Shown piece by piece: positions 19,884-37,527 of a stretch of 64,000 nucleotides of DNA. The first letter of the stretch is position 1. Every line of letters starts with the position of its first letter. The DNA is from an uncultured Oscillospiraceae bacterium (GTDB lineage Bacteria; Bacillota; Clostridia; Oscillospirales; Acutalibacteraceae), in assembly GCA_949283785.1 (NCBI GenBank), contig CASDTR010000012.1:1-64000 (forward strand). The letters are read 5' to 3'. Position numbers and translations under genes: made by a program. The notes beneath the pieces were generated by a model. That model had not been told where the DNA came from, made no database searches, and was given only the letters and a program-made list of their open reading frames with translations.

Positions 19884-22454
19884 TTAGAAATTAAATCGGT
19901 ATTCATCAATATCAGATAATTTTTCTAAATATTTATAGAACTCACCTGCTTTTTTGATTGCATTCTCTCTTGCCTCTCCTATAGGCAGAGGGATTTGAAA
20001 ATATCTTTCCCATGCATCAAGTTTTAATTCTGGCTGACTAGCTGTTTGTGCAAGATAATAGATTTGTTTCCGGCATATCTCACTTCGCAAAGCATACCAA
20101 AGTAACAGGCCCTCTGTTTCGTTTTTGGGAACAACAACTAAGAAACCCGATGTACAAATAGCATTATCAAATTCTTTTGGGACTAAAACTACTGTTCCTC
20201 TTGAACTATTGTTAAGTGCAACTAAAACATCACCTGTATGTATTTGGTACTCACCTCTTGTAGGCAAATTACTAAACAAATCTTCAATATAATTAGTAAT
20301 TAGACCATACTTTGTAACATCGCTAATTTCTATATATCTGTATAAGCGCCCGTCTTTGCGCATTGCATCTTTTTCCTTGCCTGTTAATTTCTTACGAAGA
20401 TCTAATTTATTTGCATTTAACAACTCAATTTTCTTCTCCCTAGCAGCTCGCTGAATATTTGCATAAGTATTGTGCAAATCAGGGCAATAGAAAAATGCAT
20501 CAAATCGTTCGATTGACAACTTTTCTGGTGGGAGCAACCAATATTGTAATGGCCCTTCCAAGTTTTCAGACGTATTTGGGTTTTCTCTAATTTTTTCGGA
20601 TACTATGCCTGTCCTCTGCCATTCCAAATAAGAAATTAGTATTTCAGTTAAATTATTGCGATATGGAGTATCTTTTAGAGCATTATCATGTCCTATATTG
20701 TTTGAAATAGACATAAATATGTAGCCTTGATTTTCTTCGCTATTTTCTTTTTTACGCAAATGAAGAATCGAAGTCTTAATATTCGCATTTGCTTTGAAAA
20801 AAGCATTAAAAGGTAATGAATGTACTCCTAATATGATAAACTTCTCAAGAATCCATTTGCGGACATCCTCAAAACTTTTACCATTGATAACAGTATCATC
20901 AAGAACAATTAACATTTCCCCTGATGGCTTAAGCAACTCATAGTATCTATCTAAAAATAAAATACTTGATTTAACTGTCGATACACCTTTAGTTAAATCG
21001 TGTTGTTCAATAATTCTCTTTTCATCTGTTTTTTTCGAATCGTATTTCATGCTAAACGGTGGATTAGTCAAAACAATATCAAAGGATTCTTTAGCTACTT
21101 TTTCTCGATATTCTTGCACAGCATCCCGCTGTTCACTTGTCATATCAGGCAACTCTTGTGAATCTATATCAAGTCCATCTCCGTGAAAAATGTGAGAACC
21201 GCCGTCCCCGTGTAGATACATATTGATTCTGGCAATCCTGCTAACTCGTTCATTTGCTTCCACCCCATATAGACATTCGTTGCAAATCAGAGTTTTTAAA
21301 TCTTTGCGCTGTGTATCAGTTAAACGTGTATCATCGCGTAGCCGCCCTGTTAGATAAGCCATCACCTCAATTAGAAATCCCGCTGTGCCACAACAAGCGT
21401 CTAGCACTTTAGGCGGTTTAGTAATATCAACATTACGCAATGCGATTCGTGTCATAAAGTCTACAACAGAACGAGGGGTAAAAAACTGTCCTAAGTCTTT
21501 GCCGCGAATAGAAGCTGCTAAAAAGACTTCAAACATTCGTCCATTTAAATCCTCGTCTATAGAACTTAAATTGACGGTTTGAAAAGCTTTAATTAAATCC
21601 TTACAGGTTGCAGCAGATAATTTTAAGGTTTCGTCTTTTTCGAAGATTCGTTTCTTCTTATCTTTTTTTATAGCATCTTCTAATTGAGTGTGCAGATTAT
21701 GGAACAGAATATCTCGTACAGGGTGACTACTTGTTTTTTCCTGCGCCTCTAACCACTTTTCAGTTAATGGAATAGCATACGTCGGAGTGTCTGCATCTAA
21801 CTTTTCTCGCTTTTTATCTTCCTGTATTTTTATGAATATAAACTTACAGAATTCAAAAAAGGCATCTGCAGGCGCCAACTTTTCTTTTTTCCAAACTAAA
21901 TTATGTGATTCTGCAAAAAGTTGATTAAGTTTCTGCGGAGGCAAAGATTCAAACGCCAATTCAGTTGCAGGTACAGGTGTAATCGCGCCATACTTAATAT
22001 ATGTTCGGAGTGTTACATATGGCGGCATACCACTTGCAAAGTCGGATAACTGTAATGTAACAATCGGGGTTTCTGAATCATGGGGAAACAAACCTGTAAA
22101 ATGACCGTTTGAAATTAACAACCATTTTACACGCTCATCTACATTTTTGTCGCGGTTATAACTTAATGCGTAACTGGCCGCTTGTCCCCAAGCATCTAAA
22201 ATGTTTATCTTTGGATCTTTTGCTTCAACAATTATTCTTGCTATCCCCTTTTTGTCCTTTAAAAGAAAATCCACTTCTTTCATCGTGTATTTTGTTCCAT
22301 CACTAATTTTTAAAGCCTTGATATGTTTTTTGGGTACAATGGCATCTGCAGGATACCCTAAGTCATCAAACACTTTCGCAAGAAGGCGTGTTTCGACCTC
22401 TGCTTCCGTTGTTAGTTGTGATGTATCTAAAGAAAAAAGCGTGCTAAAAGCCAT
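19884..22454 (-). CDS. Single-chain restriction-modification enzyme (type IIG/type I-like)
   Basis: An 856-residue protein combining three activities. The N-terminal HsdR-N-like nuclease domain shows a PD-(D/E)xK core, EVDFLL (D62) and IIVEAKD (E77, K79). The central HsdM-like N6-adenine methyltransferase has FTPRSVVDFM, motif I VLDACCGTAGFL and motif IV IVLTNPPF. The C-terminal ~190 residues resemble one HsdS target-recognition unit (YIEISDVTKYG...GDVLVAL...LDAWERYFQIPLP). One polypeptide could therefore methylate and cut, as in type IIG enzymes. No separate hsdR or hsdS is nearby. The gene is AT-rich, consistent with transfer. Confidence 0.85.
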   Translation of the reverse strand: MAFSTLFSLDTSQLTTEAEVETRLLAKVFDDLGYPADAIVPKKHIKALKISDGTKYTMKEVDFLLKDKKGIARIIVEAKDPKINILDAWGQAASYALSYNRDKNVDERVKWLLISNGHFTGLFPHDSETPIVTLQLSDFASGMPPYVTLRTYIKYGAITPVPATELAFESLPPQKLNQLFAESHNLVWKKEKLAPADAFFEFCKFIFIKIQEDKKREKLDADTPTYAIPLTEKWLEAQEKTSSHPVRDILFHNLHTQLEDAIKKDKKKRIFEKDETLKLSAATCKDLIKAFQTVNLSSIDEDLNGRMFEVFLAASIRGKDLGQFFTPRSVVDFMTRIALRNVDITKPPKVLDACCGTAGFLIEVMAYLTGRLRDDTRLTDTQRKDLKTLICNECLYGVEANERVSRIARINMYLHGDGGSHIFHGDGLDIDSQELPDMTSEQRDAVQEYREKVAKESFDIVLTNPPFSMKYDSKKTDEKRIIEQHDLTKGVSTVKSSILFLDRYYELLKPSGEMLIVLDDTVINGKSFEDVRKWILEKFIILGVHSLPFNAFFKANANIKTSILHLRKKENSEENQGYIFMSISNNIGHDNALKDTPYRNNLTEILISYLEWQRTGIVSEKIRENPNTSENLEGPLQYWLLPPEKLSIERFDAFFYCPDLHNTYANIQRAAREKKIELLNANKLDLRKKLTGKEKDAMRKDGRLYRYIEISDVTKYGLITNYIEDLFSNLPTRGEYQIHTGDVLVALNNSSRGTVVLVPKEFDNAICTSGFLVVVPKNETEGLLLWYALRSEICRKQIYYLAQTASQPELKLDAWERYFQIPLPIGEARENAIKKAGEFYKYLEKLSDIDEYRFNF

Positions 22455-22946: not shown

Positions 22947-23894
22947 GCATATCCCTATGGTTGGGATCAAAAAACCGTTTCAGGCATTTTGGAGCGTCCG
23001 GAGTATAAAGGGCATACGGTAAACTTCAAGACCTACAAACAGTCCTACAAAAGTAAAAAGACTTGCTACAATCCCGAAGAAAAATGGCTTGTGTTTGAAA
23101 ATACCCATGAAGCAATCATTGACGCTGACACATGGGAGCGGGTACAGGAATTAAGAAAGAACAAATGTCGCCCGACAAAGACAGGCAAGACTAATATGTT
23201 TTCCGGTATTGCGCGTTGTGCTGACTGCGGAGAAAAGCTGTATTACTGCACAAGCAGGAACTTTGAAGCAAGGCAAGATCACTTTATCTGCTCTACTTCA
23301 AGGCTCAAAGGGAAAGAGGTTTGCTCTACTCATTTTATCCGCGCTGTGGTATTGGAACAGGGCGTACTTGCTCACATGAGAATGACGATTGCCTGTGTCG
23401 CTAACCACGAAGAACAATTCCGTAAAGCTATGGGCGCGAAGCAGAAAGCCGAAACGAAAAAGGAAATTGCAGCAAAGCGGCGGCAACTGGCGCAAGCAGA
23501 ACTCCGGATAGAGGAACTTGACCACCTATTCAAGCGTATTTACGAGGACAACGTCAATGGGAAACTATCTGACAGAAGGTTTCAAATGCTCTCTGACGAT
23601 TACGAACAGGAGCAGGAAGAACTGCGAGAAAAGCTGGTGCGTCTGAATGAAGAAATTACAAAACAGGAAGAACAGGCAGAAAACATCGCCAGGTTTATCG
23701 GCAAAGCAAGGAAGTATCTCGACTTGGACAAACTAACGCCCACTATACTCAATGACATGGTAAAGGCGGTGTATGTTCACGCGCCGGACAAGTCAAAGGG
23801 TTATCGGGAACAGCAGATTGATATTTCCTATGACCTTGTGGGAATACTCCCTGTGTCTTTGCTGAATGGCCTACAAAACGACGAAACGGCATAG
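22947..23894 (+). pseudogene. C-terminal fragment of a large serine recombinase (TnpX-like)
   Basis: An open frame of 316 codons from just after a stop codon. It reads as the middle and C-terminal part of a large serine recombinase: PYGWDQKTVSGILERPEYKG, HTVNFKT, the HEAIIDADTWERVQ segment, a zinc ribbon (CADCGEKLYYC...C...C) and a long coiled coil (~residues 160-250). The catalytic N-terminal resolvase domain, with its active serine, is absent. An ATG at 22943 is in another frame and stops quickly. A deletion removed roughly 300 residues and probably immobilised the island. Confidence 0.85.
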
Positions 23895-32331: not shown

Positions 32332-32552
32332 GTATGCTTTCAGTCAAGCGACGCTCTATATTATAATTTATTGTCCCGAAAAAATCAAGAGTATTTTTAA
32401 AGTTTTTGCATTTGCTCCGCAAAAATCCTGCAGCCCGTCTCCGACGCTTATTCCGCCCGCGCCCGACCTTATGTTTATTCGACTCACCAATCCCGCCCGC
32501 TTTCATATTATATAAAAGGGACTTGCCCAAAAGCATAAAAGGAGCTGAAATC

Positions 32553-32798
32553 ATGGAAAACTTTGACAATTACTTCAATCCCTATTTCGCGGGACTCAGG
32601 AGCTCCGACGGCGAAAGCGACTGCGAGGAAGCCTATACCCCCACCTCCGCGCTGCCGAAGAATCCCGTTCCCGCAATGGCATATATACCCTTCCAGCAGT
32701 TCACACAGCCCTACTCCTCATCGGAAGGCTTTAAAAAGGGAACGCTTTTCCCCTGCCTGGACAAACCGTTCCTCGGCGAAAGGGGCTGCGGCATATGA
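32553..32798 (+). CDS. cotJA: Spore coat-associated protein CotJA
   Basis: An 81-residue protein with the CotJA signature AYIPFQQFTQPYSSSEGFKKGTLFPCLDKPF (residues ~42-73, quoted in part). ATG 32553 follows AAAGGAGC; the long upstream extension is spurious and would cross into the tRNA flank. It is the first gene of cotJA-cotJB-cotJC, overlapping cotJB by four bases. In Bacillus the operon is transcribed in the mother cell under sigma-E. No unambiguous sigma-E promoter was identified by eye here. Confidence 0.88.
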   Translation: MENFDNYFNPYFAGLRSSDGESDCEEAYTPTSALPKNPVPAMAYIPFQQFTQPYSSSEGFKKGTLFPCLDKPFLGERGCGI

Positions 32799-33046
32799 CT
32801 GACAGAGAGGCCCTTTTAAAAAAGCTCAGCATCGCTCAGTTTGCGGCCTGGGAAATGCACGTCTTTCTCAACACGCACCCCGACTGCCCCGAAGCGGTGA
32901 GGAAGTTCAAGCAGTACACCAATGAGGCAAAGGTGCTCACTCAGGAATATGAGAGCAAATACGGCCCCCTTTCCTCAGAGCAGAGCGACGGCTCATCTTG
33001 GCTCAAGGGGCCGTGGCCCTGGGAGAATACGGGAGGTGAAAATTAA
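32795..33046 (+). CDS. cotJB: Spore coat protein CotJB
   Basis: An 83-residue CotJB: REALLKKLSIAQFAAWEMHVFLNTHP, PEAVRKFKQY and the C-terminal GPWPWE are typical. It overlaps cotJA (ATGA) and its stop overlaps the start of cotJC by one base, so the three are translationally coupled. CotJB is a small partner of the coat-associated CotJC catalase-like protein. Confidence 0.92.
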   Translation: MTDREALLKKLSIAQFAAWEMHVFLNTHPDCPEAVRKFKQYTNEAKVLTQEYESKYGPLSSEQSDGSSWLKGPWPWENTGGEN

Positions 33047-33225
33047 TGTGGAATTATGAGAAAAAACTCCAGTACCCCGTAAACATTAAAAACCCCAACC
33101 CAACCTACGCCAAAATCATAATGACCCAGTACGGCGGACCCGACGGAGAGCTGGGTGCGTCGCTGAGATACCTGAGCCAGCGCTTTTCCATGCCCTATGC
33201 CGAGCTGAAAGGGCTGCTGACGGAT
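33046..33225 (+). CDS. cotJC: CotJC manganese catalase, 5' part (interrupted gene)
   Basis: These 60 codons (MWNYEKKLQYPVNIK...GGPDGELGASLRYLSQRF...GLLTD) are the N-terminal third of CotJC, a spore-coat Mn-catalase-like protein. In the chromosome as given, the frame continues past the junction as IGTEYTQISFLY and stops at 33264, so only a 72-residue truncated product is possible. The break lies in IGTEELAHLEM, which holds metal-binding Glu and His. Joining position 33225 to 37093 restores the frame exactly. GGAGGTG precedes the ATG. Confidence 0.95.
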
Positions 33226-33233
33226 ATAGGTAC
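33225..33233. repeat. Left core direct repeat (attL)
   Basis: TATAGGTAC in the fifth codon group before the break, immediately followed by the inner arm at 33235-33252. The same nine bases occur at 37092-37100 in the same orientation. Confidence 0.9.
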
Positions 33234-33242
33234 AGAATACAC

Positions 33243-34877
33243 TCAAATATCCTTTTTGTACTGAGAGATTTCCTTTCGGCCTTTCAGGATAAGTGCCTCC
33301 CATTTCCCCGAAATATACTTTAAATATATATCCGCCCTGCCGCTGCCGAAAATCTCGATCCGCTCCGTAAGCTTTCCGTAAAACGCGTCGCTCCATATGC
33401 CGCCACGCAAAATTTCGGAGGCAAAGTTCTCTGCTTTCCGCAAAAAACTTTCCTCTTCCCTTCGGCCGAGATTTTCTCCTCTCTTCGCCGTTTCCGAAAG
33501 GCGCTTTTCGAGCTCTAACCTTTCTCTCTCGGCTTTGCCTATAATTTCGAGAAATTCCTCTTTCTCAATATACCCTTCCGACCACATTTCAACAAGCCTC
33601 TTTTTCCTTATCTTACATTTCCTTATTTTCTCCCGAAGGACGCCTTCTTCATCCTCGGAGCATTTTGTCACCGACTCGAGAGCTTTCAGAACCGCTTCCA
33701 TTTTGTCCTCCCTGCCTTCCAGCGTCTCCATCGCGGCTTTCATAACCATATCCCTTATGTCCTCCTCCTTCACGGAAAAGAGCCCGCACCCTTCCACGCA
33801 TCGGGAAAGGCTGTCTTTTCCCCCTCTCCTTGCGCCGCAAACCCAGCTGACACTTAGGCTCCCGTCCTTTTTCCGCCTCTGCCGCCTTATGAAAACCTTC
33901 CCCGTTTCCCCGCAGACGATCTTACCTGACAGTGCGTATCCGCTTTGCATACATCTTTCCCCGCCCGAAACCCTGCTGCGCCTTTCGAGCTCACGCTGCG
34001 CCTGCTCGAACCTCTCCCGCGAAATTATCCCACGATGATGATCCCTGATTATCACCTTTTCCCTCTCCCCTCGGTTTAGCTTTTTGCAGTGGGTGAGATA
34101 ATCGGGAGTATAGGTTTTCTGCTGAATAAGGTCTCCGCAGTATTTTTCGTTTCTGAGTATCCGAAGGATATTTGTGTAAGACCACTCCTTCATGTATTCC
34201 GAGGTTCCCGCGCCTTCCTTACTCAGCTCCTGCGCTATTCTGCGGGCTCCCTTGCCCTCGTCAAGAAATTTGTGAAATATCCTGCGCACCGTCTCGGCGC
34301 CTTCCTCGTTTATTATGAGCCTGCCGTCCCTTACATCATACCCCAGCATATCCCTGCCGAACACCACGCCTTTTTCCATTTGACGCCGCTGACCCCACTT
34401 TACCCTTTCGCTGGTCTTTCGGCTCTCCTCCTGAGCAATGGCTGCCATAAGGGCTATCCTCAGCTCCCCGTCATTATCCATGGTGTAAACTGAATCATTA
34501 AGAAAAAGCACCCCTACGCCGATTTTTCTTAGCTCCCTTGTATAGACGAGGCTGTCAACGATATTGCGGGCGAAACGGCTTATTTCCTTCGTGATTATCA
34601 GATCGAATTTCCCTTCCCTCGCGTCCTCTATCATCCTGCCGAAGGCTTCTCGGTTTTTTGTGTCCGTACCCGATATGCCGTCGTCGGCATATATCCCGCA
34701 GAAAGTCCAATTGGGATTTTCTCCTATGTACCGCTTGAAATATTTTTTCTGGCTCTCGAGGGAATTCGCCTGATCCTCCTTATCGGTGGAAACGCGGCAG
34801 TAGGCCGCCGCACGCATGGGCCTATCCTTTAACTGAGTCACTTTAATCCGCTCCCCTAATATGCCGTTTTCGTCCAT
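33243..34877 (-). CDS. Large serine recombinase of the cotJC element
   Basis: A 544-residue site-specific recombinase. The resolvase domain shows AAAYCRVSTDKEDQANS (catalytic Ser30, Arg28), DDGISGTDTKNR and TKEISRFARN. A recombinase domain (GRDMLGYDVRDG...YTNILRILRNEKYCGD), a zinc-ribbon-like part (VCGETG...WVCG...RCVEGCG) and a coiled coil (~residues 390-480) follow. The gene appears complete. It ends only 10 bp from the left core and starts 3 bp after the SHOCT-like gene. It is the expected enzyme for excising the element and restoring cotJC. Confidence 0.95.
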   Translation of the reverse strand: MDENGILGERIKVTQLKDRPMRAAAYCRVSTDKEDQANSLESQKKYFKRYIGENPNWTFCGIYADDGISGTDTKNREAFGRMIEDAREGKFDLIITKEISRFARNIVDSLVYTRELRKIGVGVLFLNDSVYTMDNDGELRIALMAAIAQEESRKTSERVKWGQRRQMEKGVVFGRDMLGYDVRDGRLIINEEGAETVRRIFHKFLDEGKGARRIAQELSKEGAGTSEYMKEWSYTNILRILRNEKYCGDLIQQKTYTPDYLTHCKKLNRGEREKVIIRDHHRGIISRERFEQAQRELERRSRVSGGERCMQSGYALSGKIVCGETGKVFIRRQRRKKDGSLSVSWVCGARRGGKDSLSRCVEGCGLFSVKEEDIRDMVMKAAMETLEGREDKMEAVLKALESVTKCSEDEEGVLREKIRKCKIRKKRLVEMWSEGYIEKEEFLEIIGKAERERLELEKRLSETAKRGENLGRREEESFLRKAENFASEILRGGIWSDAFYGKLTERIEIFGSGRADIYLKYISGKWEALILKGRKEISQYKKDI

Positions 34878-34880
34878 AAA

Positions 34881-35045
34881 TCAGATGAACCTCAGCCTGC
34901 GCCTGCACTGCTCATACTGACTGAAACTTATGAGCTTTTTTTCATAAAGGGCAAGCAGCAGCGCCTCGGTAAAATTTCTGTCAAACTCTTCGCTTACGCT
35001 GCGCGCATATTTGTTTTTCTCGGGAAATATTACTTTCGTTTTCAT
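34881..35045 (-). CDS. Small SHOCT-like protein, candidate directionality factor
   Basis: A 54-residue protein (MKTKVIFPEKNKYARSVSEE...FTEALLLALYEKKLISFSQYEQCRRRLRFI). Its C-terminal half matches the short helical pattern of SHOCT domains (LLxLYEKGLIsxxEYExxrrrl). ATG 35045 follows GGGGCGG, and the stop is separated from the recombinase start by three bases (TGATTTATG), so the two are coupled. Position beside a serine integrase suggests a role in directionality or DNA binding; this is inference. Confidence 0.75.
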   Translation of the reverse strand: MKTKVIFPEKNKYARSVSEEFDRNFTEALLLALYEKKLISFSQYEQCRRRLRFI

Positions 35046-35301
35046 AAAACCGCCCCTGAACAGTTTATGACGCCCGAGCCCTTCTTTATGATATAAATGA
35101 AGACGGCACGGGCCTTGCGCCTTTTTCTAAAAAACACCGGCCCTTATTCCGTAATGTAAATTATTTAAAAAATCGCCTTCATGTAGCAAATGCATATTTC
35201 TTCGGTAAATCTAACATTTTTTCTGTGTGTTTTCCCAATTTTTGTTGTTTTTGAGTTACCCCCATTGTATAATGAGTTAAAGAATAAAACGGGGTGAGAA
35301 T

Positions 35302-36936
35302 ATGAAGCTGACAATTATAATTAACCTTATATGCCTGCTTATAAACCTCATAACAGGCGGAGTTTGCACGGGGGCCGACGCGGTAATGAAGCCTCTTTAC
35401 GGCGACGCCCTGAGCTTTGACGATACCTACGGAGTATCCGTCCACGACCCTTCCGTTTACAAGGCGCAGGACGGCACATACTACATAACAGGCTCCCACA
35501 TCGCCTCTGCCAAAAGTACGGATCTCATCAACTGGCAGACCGTAAGCTCAGGCGTATATGACAGCAACCGTACCCTCGTAAAGGAAGGCTCCACCCTCAG
35601 GGAGAGCTTTTCCGAGGCCTTCGCCTGGTGCGACGGAGCGCAGAAGCTCCGGTGGGACAGAAGCGACGAGGACCTTGAAACCAACGTCTGGGCCTCCGAC
35701 GTTATCTACAACGAGACAATGGGCAAATACTGCTACTATGCCTGTTCCTCAGTTTGGGGCACTACGGCGTCGGTGATCTGGATGGCGGTTTCAGACACCC
35801 CCGAAGGCACCTTCGAGTTTGTCGATACAATGATATACAGCGGCTTCAACAAGCACACCGCGAAGCTGGGCGTTCCTCAAAACGAAATGCACTACTCCTT
35901 TACAAATATCGGCGAGCTTATCAGAAAAGGCGTCTTTAAAAAGAGCGAAGTGGAAGCTCAGGACTGGTTCGACCCCAACGGCTATTATGACTGCGGCTAC
36001 GGACAGTATCCCAACGCAATCGACCCCACCGCCTTCTACGACGAGGACGGAAACCTGTGGCTCGTATACGGCTCCTACAGCGGCGGCATATATGTAATGC
36101 CCCTCGTTGAGGAGACGGGACTTCCCGACTACGCCGCTATGAGGGCGTCGGAGGGCTATGACATCTACTTCGGCAAGCAAATCTCCTGCACTAACGAGGC
36201 CACAAACGGTACCGGCGAAGGTCCCTTCATCACCTATGACAAGGTAAGCGGATACTATTATTTCTTCCTTACCTACGGCGGACTCGGCGCCCTTGACGGC
36301 TACAATATTCGCCAATACCGCAGCGAAAATCCCGCCGGACCCTATGTGGACCTTGCAGGCAATGACGCGCGGGACAACGTGAACACCGGCACGAAGGTGA
36401 TCGGAAACTATCAGTTCTCCTTCGAGGATACCGCAAAGCTTTCCCCCGGCCATTCCTCCTGCCTTGCGGATGACGACGGCAAGGTATATCAGGTTTACCA
36501 CCAGAGATACAACGACTCCTTCGGCGGCTTCCACAGCATTCAGGTCCACCAGATGCTCAGAACCGCCAACGGCTGGCTCACAATGCTTCCCCTCTCCTAT
36601 AACGGGGAAACGGCGGAAAACGTAACGCAAACAGACATTGAAGGCGACTATGAGCTCATCCTTTTCTCAGCCGACACTAAATCCACCGACGACTGGGCAA
36701 AGGTGGCCGATATAATCGAACCGACCTGTGAAGCTCAGATAAAGGGCGGAAAGCTCATATTCGGCGGACAGGCATATCCCCTGACTCTCGACGACGATTC
36801 CTACACCTTCACCCTTGACATTGACGGCGAAGCCTTCTACGGCGCTTTCTGCGTCGGCACAAAGGACGGCGAAACGGTGATGACCCTTTCCGCCGTTTCC
36901 GACGGCAACCGCACTCTTTGGGCCGCAGCCCGCTGA
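35302..36936 (+). CDS. Secreted GH43-family glycoside hydrolase (arabinanase-like)
   Basis: A 544-residue exported enzyme with an N-terminal hydrophobic signal (residues 1-27). The five-bladed GH43 fold shows the catalytic base in VHDPSVYKAQDGTYYITGSH, the transition-state Asp in NAIDPTAFYDEDGNLWLVYGSY and the acid Glu in GTGEGPFITYD. A C-terminal beta domain (~residues 450-544) completes it. It resembles endo-1,5-arabinanase/exo-arabinanase subfamilies. It lies inside the cotJC element as cargo, with its own GGGGTGAG site and a following terminator. Codon usage resembles the host. Confidence 0.88.
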   Translation: MKLTIIINLICLLINLITGGVCTGADAVMKPLYGDALSFDDTYGVSVHDPSVYKAQDGTYYITGSHIASAKSTDLINWQTVSSGVYDSNRTLVKEGSTLRESFSEAFAWCDGAQKLRWDRSDEDLETNVWASDVIYNETMGKYCYYACSSVWGTTASVIWMAVSDTPEGTFEFVDTMIYSGFNKHTAKLGVPQNEMHYSFTNIGELIRKGVFKKSEVEAQDWFDPNGYYDCGYGQYPNAIDPTAFYDEDGNLWLVYGSYSGGIYVMPLVEETGLPDYAAMRASEGYDIYFGKQISCTNEATNGTGEGPFITYDKVSGYYYFFLTYGGLGALDGYNIRQYRSENPAGPYVDLAGNDARDNVNTGTKVIGNYQFSFEDTAKLSPGHSSCLADDDGKVYQVYHQRYNDSFGGFHSIQVHQMLRTANGWLTMLPLSYNGETAENVTQTDIEGDYELILFSADTKSTDDWAKVADIIEPTCEAQIKGGKLIFGGQAYPLTLDDDSYTFTLDIDGEAFYGAFCVGTKDGETVMTLSAVSDGNRTLWAAAR

Positions 36937-37005
36937 GGGAAACAGCGCATATGTTCTGCCCGAAACCAAAAATAAATATTTTAAGACAAAAAGCAACACA
37001 AAACA

Positions 37006-37041
37006 CATCCCCCGAAGCAGAGCCTTACGCCTCGGGGGATG
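37006..37041 (+). terminator. Terminator of the GH43 gene
   Basis: A ten-base perfect stem CATCCCCCGA / TCGGGGGATG followed by CTTTCGTTTT, inside the element's right end. Confidence 0.85.
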
Positions 37042-37091
37042 CTTTCGTTTTAAAAGGCAGAGGAACACAAAAGGGACATTTCAGTGTACTC

Positions 37092-37100
37092 TATAGGTAC
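37092..37100. repeat. Right core direct repeat (attR)
   Basis: TATAGGTAC, identical to 33225-33233, preceded by the inner arm 37074-37091 and followed by the cotJC 3' part (CGAGGAGCTGGCCC). Confidence 0.9.
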
Positions 37101-37527
37101 CGAGGAGCTGGCCCATCTTGAGATGATAGGCGCCATAGTCTACCAGCTCACCCGCAACCTTTCAATAGAGGACATCAAAAAGGGCGGCTATGACTCCTAT
37201 TTCGTAGACCACACCACGGGCATATATCCTGCCTCTGCAGGCGGAGTTCCCTTTACCGCCGCCTATCTTCAGTCAAAGGGCGACGTTATCACCGACCTCC
37301 ACGAAAACCTTGCCGCAGAGCAGAAGGCCCGCACCACCTACGACAATATCCTCAGGCTCGTAGACGACCCCGACGTGCGAGACGCCATAAAATTCCTCCG
37401 TGCAAGAGAGGTAGTCCACTATCAGCGCTTCGGAGAAGGACTCAGGCTTGCCACCGACAAGCTCAACGAAAAGAACTTCTACGCCTTCAATCCCAGCTTC
37501 GACAAATGCCCCGATAAAAAGGCGTGA
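37093..37527 (+). CDS. cotJC: CotJC manganese catalase, 3' part (interrupted gene)
   Basis: These 144 codons continue CotJC from IGTEELAHLEM through YQLTRNLS, YFVDHTTGIYPAS, EQKARTTYDNILRLVDDPDVRD, FLRAREVVHYQRFGE and end FNPSFDKCPDKKA. The ligand-bearing helices (EELAHLE; EQKARTTYDN; REVVHYQRF) are all intact, so no decay is visible. A GTG at 37084 could start a truncated product, but without the first 60 residues it would be inactive. Joined to 33046-33225 it makes a normal-looking 204-residue protein. Confidence 0.95.
   Translation: MGTEELAHLEMIGAIVYQLTRNLSIEDIKKGGYDSYFVDHTTGIYPASAGGVPFTAAYLQSKGDVITDLHENLAAEQKARTTYDNILRLVDDPDVRDAIKFLRAREVVHYQRFGEGLRLATDKLNEKNFYAFNPSFDKCPDKKA

Follow-up and report, generated by a model that had tools for sequence, protein, structure and literature searches.

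Gene assembly by programmed DNA excision occurs in heterocysts and in the mother cells of spore formers, where the cases usually cited are few (sigK, spsM, gerE, spoVFB and yabG). The SPbeta prophage, for example, reportedly interrupts spsM and leaves it precisely. Here we describe a 3,867-bp element that interrupts the spore-coat gene cotJC of an uncultured Oscillospiraceae bacterium (assembly GCA_949283785.1). The DNA analyzed, referred to as the window, is the whole 64,000-nucleotide stretch at positions 1 to 64,000 of contig CASDTR010000012.1. We consider it very probable that this is a minimal sporulation-gene-intervening element, similar to skin and gin, which contains no phage genes and is excised in the mother cell.

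According to the sections of the cited papers that deal with these systems, the gin element in gerE of Bacillus cereus ATCC10987 is 28.6 kb long, contains three serine recombinase genes and has been shown experimentally to rearrange (PMC5595907). Like gin, the window element is a non-phage element in a short sporulation gene with a 9-bp core repeat and a serine recombinase (GirC in gin). Unlike gin, it interrupts another gene, uses another recombinase, spans 3.9 kb and has one serine recombinase. The gin element has the directionality factor GirX and rejoins its gene during sporulation, whereas the window element has a candidate recombination directionality factor (RDF) known from its sequence. 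The skin element in sigK of Clostridioides difficile has the recombinase CD1231 and the RDF CD1234; expression of the latter depends on sigma-E and SpoIIID, and its transcription starts 14 bp before the start codon (PMC5025042). A comparably short leader is predicted before the candidate RDF described here, which is a likeness of arrangement. The skin recombinase has its own sigma-A promoter (PMC5025042), whereas the window recombinase lies directly behind the candidate RDF. Additionally, sigK encodes a regulator while cotJC encodes a structural coat enzyme. The vfbin element in spoVFB and the yin element in yabG interrupt late sporulation genes and exit precisely (PMC10747680). SPbeta, vfbin and yin are prophages or prophage-like, whereas the window element has no phage gene besides an integrase-type recombinase.

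Large serine recombinase clusters are known in which diverse recombinases converge on one conserved coding site (PMC10083194). The genes named there are a chelatase/protease gene and a prolyl isomerase gene, and the word 'catalase' is absent from the main text. The phi027 prophage of C. difficile adjoins a CotJC homologue; the sections that deal with it place it next to this cotJC-type gene and do not describe it as splitting the gene (PMC11222575, PMC12122855). An earlier note on the window, made from the sequence alone, had known of no described cotJC element of this type in gut Clostridia, and our search of the open-licence PMC literature agrees, with no cotJC-intervening element among the matches listed.

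The split cotJC gene and its element

The interrupted gene is a sporulation gene that belongs to the cotJA-cotJB-cotJC operon. The features of the locus are as follows, with ORF standing for open reading frame and GH43 for glycoside hydrolase family 43.

32553..32798, + strand: cotJA, first gene in the cotJ operon (PF11007, E 2.6e-17 over 32547-32798; ATG at 32553 from the sequence)
32795..33046, + strand: cotJB (PF12652, E 3.8e-25)
33046..33225, + strand: 5' part of cotJC, codons 1-60 (PF05067, Mn_catalase, profile positions 1-61)
33225..33233, + strand: left core repeat TATAGGTAC, codons for D-I-G-T
33231..33264, + strand: left element end, attP half-site TACAGAATACACTCAAATATCC (inverted match to the right end, 18/22)
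33243..34877, - strand: large serine recombinase, 544 residues (PF00239, PF07508 and PF13408; phrog_95 integrase)
34881..35045, - strand: 54-residue ORF, candidate RDF (conserved family; two-helix model)
35062..35089, - strand: sigma-E-like promoter ATA-N17-CATAAACT, 16 nt before the ATG of the 54-residue ORF
35302..36936, + strand: cargo, GH43 glycoside hydrolase of the arabinanase type with a putative signal peptide seen by eye (PF04616, PF16369)
37062..37095, + strand: right element end, attP half-site (inverted-match test)
37092..37100, + strand: right core repeat TATAGGTAC
37093..37527, + strand: 3' part of cotJC, codons 61-204 and stop (PF05067 profile positions 62-197)

The element interrupts cotJC after codon 60 and its removal leaves 204 codons in frame. 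As the earlier note had claimed, the nine-base core repeat stands at both junctions in the same orientation and codon phase, and the next-best alternative join scores below the chosen one (1061 vs 1072). The congener G002 (G and L numbers denote genomes and loci) has an empty site, in which the flanks of the window align to the neighbouring positions 2392 and 2393. The rejoined CotJC of the window is 97% identical to the intact CotJC of G002. Both results bear out the proposal that the element can be removed precisely and in frame. The note had suggested a search for intact cotJC in relatives, and the gene is present at full length in congeners G001 and G002. It had also named a second intact cotJC in the same genome as evidence to the contrary. 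No other Mn_catalase match was found in the window's own genome (a draft, 97% complete, 71 contigs), and supply of the protein by a second cotJC elsewhere is rejected on this ground. The host genome has a SpoIVA match above cut-off and a SpoIIID-like gene slightly below its cut-off. Its genes for spore sigma-factor-like proteins are uninterrupted, and none of them exceeds the sigma-K cut-off.

The serine recombinase beside one junction is complete, as had been noted, with its three Pfam domains, and its gene ends beside the left junction. The 54-residue ORF precedes it on the same strand, at a distance of 3 bp. The GH43 gene is divergent, and its best PDB sequence match is the extracellular arabinanase 5ho9 (E 5e-77). 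These three are the assigned genes of the 3.9-kb element: there are no phage structural or replication genes, and none of the three is a relaxase or conjugation gene. A prophage identity was considered for the element and rejected, as phage structural genes are missing. At gathering thresholds Rfam gave no match between 32000 and 38000, and no tandem repeats were found. In the reconstructed attP of the window, the inverted half-sites agree at 18 of 22 positions around GG (p = 0.002, the floor of 500 shuffles). The joined ends of the element are a symmetric attP of a large serine integrase.

Three recurrent break sites in the host family

The family code of the host covers at least 135 genera in the sample. 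An Mn_catalase match was found in 229 of 300 sampled family genomes. Eighty of the 229, picked mostly for a weak best match, were searched again, and 79 are among the matches listed, to which the counts by site are restricted. Of these, 74 have cotJC fragments that end at one, two or all three of the sites a, b and c. Site a lies at profile position ~30 (41 genomes), site b, which is the site of the window, at ~62 (40 genomes) and site c at ~148 (11 genomes). Sites a and b occur together in 15 genomes, and all three in two. With the window genome included, at least 75 of the 300 family genomes have cotJC fragments that end at the recurrent sites; single fragment boundaries may be contig or alignment ends, yet they cluster sharply. 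We take the three break sites to fall on the segments of the enzyme that supply its Mn ligands.

At site b, an in-frame and stop-free rejoining was obtained in 16 of 19 loci (the window included), with an exact core of 3-10 bp at or beside GGTA. All 16 have TDIGTEEL at the junction. Aligned to the rejoined protein of the window, 13 have no inner gap, and L036, L116 and L159 have one extra residue. Reconstruction of attP at site b gave p <= 0.02 in 10 of 16 cases, a level not reached in L037, L038, L135, L146, L151 (mis-anchored) and L159. At sites a and c, seven of nine locus pairs (L039-L045) rejoin in frame, while no open in-frame join was found in L046 and L047 (g68 genomes G255 and G069). 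Separately, L039 and L040 (G121 and G279) are site-a elements of just 2.3 kb, with little in them besides a serine-recombinase-like ORF and one or two small ORFs.

The most fragmented gene is found in G108 (contig C23, about 86646-134506; L257-L259), where a 0.6-kb cotJC lies in four pieces across 48 kb of one contig. The elements are 4.0, 20.7 and 22.6 kb long and each has a serine-recombinase match. All three joints are in frame and together give a gapless protein of 197 residues. Pusillibacter faecalis MM59 has a cotJC element of ~30 kb with the core GGTAC, as read by eye, and with an annotated mobC gene inside. A small phage-like cluster (major capsid protein, phage ORF5 protein and a XerC-type recombinase) was seen near the cotJ operon of this species (L254:18012-23094).

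The window genome is a draft in 71 contigs, which leaves some room for an assembly artefact or a chimera. The same arrangement recurs in independent assemblies, among them the single-contig genomes G009, G056 and G174, the complete chromosome of Anaerocolumna sp. MB42-C2 (L151) and the replicon of Pusillibacter faecalis MM59. An artefact is rejected on this ground, and we give the idea practically no credence.

A recombinase clade tied to one codon

The recombinases of 398 family genomes were scored, with at most three candidates per genome. Thirty-six scored above 340 bits, including that of the window, and the next score was 284. A cotJC piece broken at the same codon as in the window was found in 25 of the 30 clade loci retrieved, one of which is the window's own. 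In two more, G142 and G041, this piece lies on the same contig at 2.4-2.5 kb from the recombinase. Among the best 80 of at least 570 recombinase relatives in GTDB genomes, 76 adjoin a cotJC broken near residues 60-64. The four exceptions are L113 and L127, which have no recognizable cotJC piece at the end of the gene, and L154 and L164, where the contig ends. The GTDB relatives overlap the family genomes, so the two counts cannot be added. The record titles of the clade genomes name Ruminococcaceae, Oscillospiraceae, Lachnospiraceae, Peptococcaceae and one Bacteroides sp. (L086).

In viral contigs, 11 of 80 recombinase relatives have a cotJC piece nearby, and none of the 62 that score below 340 bits does. 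Contigs L166-L174, L181 and L182 are listed as viral in IMG/VR and hold a broken host cotJC near a clade recombinase. A FastTree phylogeny of 190 recombinases showed that the site-b label clusters strongly (14 changes vs 62 when shuffled) and does not form one clean clade. No stop codon was found inside the recombinase stretch across 137 loci, in which some genomes occur twice.

A candidate directionality factor and sigma-E-like promoters

The small ORF upstream of the recombinase is a candidate RDF. A family model was derived from 17 of these ORFs. Upstream of the recombinase, it detected the family in 92 of 118 clade loci, in 7 of 10 with an intermediate score and in 2 of 62 with a lower score. 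No sequence from the 80 GTDB loci was used as a seed, and the model detects the family in 63 of them; a few of these loci (such as L102, L105 and L130) do appear to be seed genomes. The AlphaFold model of the 54-residue protein is a confident two-helix hairpin (mean pLDDT 85). A fold search with this protein gave no match at E <= 0.001, and Pfam and PHROG searches gave nothing above a cut-off.

The region before the small ORF is enriched in sigma-E-like promoter patterns. The strict form ATA-N15-18-CATA[CT]A is present upstream of the small ORF in 25 of 93 loci, where shuffles predict 0.9, and a looser form in 41 of 93, where they predict 2.1. Patterns of the sigma-K, sigma-A and sigma-G/F types are not over-represented there. 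When related upstream sequences are counted once, as clusters, the strict form is found in 4 of 38 clusters vs 29 of 2,940 random windows, and the loose form in 9 of 38 vs 47 of 2,940 random windows and 31 of 1,121 other ORFs. A wider form is found in 13 of 38 clusters vs 386 of 5,880 random windows (P = 5e-7). The promoter in the window matches the loose form, which is weak on its own, and a simple promoter scan gave 5 sites vs a shuffled mean of 3.5. Between the promoter elements of some clusters there is a SpoIIID-like GGACAA box: ATA-N0-4-G[GA]ACAA is present in 5 of 38 clusters vs 60 of 5,880 random windows. The box was spotted by eye in the very data used for its test, and the window lacks it, so we do not lean on it. 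Overall, the sigma-E-like patterns suggest that the small gene may be driven by sigma-E.

Selection and transfer

The sister species G174 and G056 have a site-a element in common, and its recombinase and cargo are the same in both. Their recombinase genes differ at 86.5 of 311 synonymous and 49.5 of 1,129 nonsynonymous sites (synonymous difference 0.28), and their cotJC genes at 35 of 136 synonymous and 2 of 458 nonsynonymous sites (synonymous difference 0.26; P = 2e-20 under neutrality). As the synonymous divergence of the two genes is similar, cotJC has probably been split since the common ancestor of G174 and G056. With so few nonsynonymous changes since then, the split gene would still make a selected product. 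The split cotJC of the two species is thus under strong purifying selection.

Site-b recombinases that are 93-99% identical occur in hosts with cotJC N-halves that have diverged at 22-39 of ~40 synonymous sites. Near-identical recombinases are thus found in diverged hosts, and site-b elements therefore move between species. Such movement between distant hosts onto the same codon would suit a plain site-specific island, which excises only to move, has no developmental regulation and leaves an expendable cotJC broken in its carriers. Late spore-coat genes are plausible as tolerant targets of such an island. The stops in some cotJC halves and the failure to find an excised junction in the collections searched, both given below, also fit it. 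We nevertheless regard a plain island as unlikely. The common split cotJC of G174 and G056 has 2 nonsynonymous vs 35 synonymous changes, the cotJC of G108 is still readable although broken by three elements, and there is an excess of sigma-E-like promoters before the candidate RDF. In addition, excision in a dying mother cell would be of no obvious help to the spread of an element.

It is also conceivable that cotJC in the window is a decaying pseudogene, with halves that are clean only because the insertion is recent. Congeners G001 and G002 do have a full-length cotJC, and the many synonymous changes between the cotJC of the window and the intact one of G002 (94.5, with 9.5 nonsynonymous; dS 1.85) are compatible with a recent insertion on this branch. 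However, the recombinase, the core repeats and the symmetry of attP are intact and the data from relatives oppose decay as the rule, which makes a pseudogene very improbable.

Proposed excision in the mother cell

The skin-like reading proposed in the earlier note is backed by the rejoining of the gene, the link between recombinase and codon, the symmetry of attP, the small gene with its sigma-E-like promoters and the purifying selection. A vegetative cell has no need of cotJC, and the element would reside in the gene there. Transcription of the small gene, and of the recombinase that follows it, would be driven by sigma-E in the mother cell. The small protein would act as directionality factor and allow the recombinase to recombine attL with attR. 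The element would leave as a circle and restore the unaltered frame of cotJC in a cell that dies anyway, while the germ line of the forespore would retain the element. We infer that excision occurs and is specific to the mother cell.

Several observations weigh against mother-cell excision. An excised junction was not found in viral contigs (two attP patterns) or in the 398 family genomes (one common attP type), and the window's own attP, the circle junction, was not found in its own genome assembly. The earlier note had described both halves of cotJC as free of decay. They are indeed in frame, but they are weak evidence in this genome alone because the recombinases of the clade move between species and the insertion may be recent, so that intact halves prove little by themselves. 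The selection test by shared inheritance covers site a, whereas the window element is at site b, where such a test is confounded because the elements transfer between species. Stops are present in 2 of 71 distinct cotJC N-halves (L081 and L174) and in 2 of 24 C-halves (22 distinct; L138 and L165), and the cotJC piece of G026 contains two. At site b, L138 and L152 have no open join, and L157 joins in frame at a place other than TDIGTEEL, which is ambiguous. The family recombinase of G350 carries a stop, and intact recombinases could be maintained by mobility alone. Lastly, most upstream clusters lack the sigma-E-like pattern, which is present in roughly a quarter to a third of them.

Cargo of the elements

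The cargo scan covered 62 of the 71 larger ORFs from the loci of the rejoining test, and some assignments of cargo to locus were made by eye. The cargo ORFs hold 95 Pfam families. None of the 25 commonest is present in more than three members, and no phage structural family is among these 25. The cotJC element L036:3150-8995 (G271) contains cas9, cas1, cas2 and csn2, all above NCBIfam cut-offs. Judged from these genes, its cargo is a type II-A CRISPR system inside a spore-coat gene. Other cargo includes an N-6 methyltransferase (hsdM-like, below its cut-off) and a lacto-N-biose phosphorylase, together with O-antigen-ligase-like, glycosyltransferase, MsbA-like ABC transporter and sodium:alanine symporter genes.

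Apparently the same pair of genes, for a FAD/Rieske oxidoreductase and a tocopherol-cyclase-like protein, occurs in the cotJC elements of two distant hosts (L037:1461-3804 and L151:7319-9761; paired to the loci by eye). Elsewhere in the window, the translations show a recombinase-like C-terminal ORF (22989-23894), in which no resolvase domain was found, and, near it, a type I restriction-modification-like ORF (19884-22454).

Meaning for gut spore formers

At least a quarter of the genomes sampled from one gut family have a broken cotJC, and the breaks recur at three sites. The recombinase clade extends, by record title, to Oscillospiraceae, Lachnospiraceae and other Clostridia. We tentatively raise a wider scheme, which we hold to be possible without favouring it. 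In this scheme, cotJC would be a landing pad across Clostridia with three short coding stretches, on which serine recombinases of at least three groups would have converged. The islands would bring cargo useful to vegetative cells (Cas9, restriction-modification-type genes, polysaccharide genes and glycosidases). With the RDF under mother-cell sigma-E, the host gene would be restored only in the dying cell, as a coat gene assembled from up to four pieces, and lysis would free circles that may spread between species.

The cotJC elements could explain broken cotJC annotations in gut spore formers. The recombinase and the candidate RDF are a directly testable system. Finally, the elements suggest that sporulation genes may serve as safe harbours for defence and metabolic cargo.

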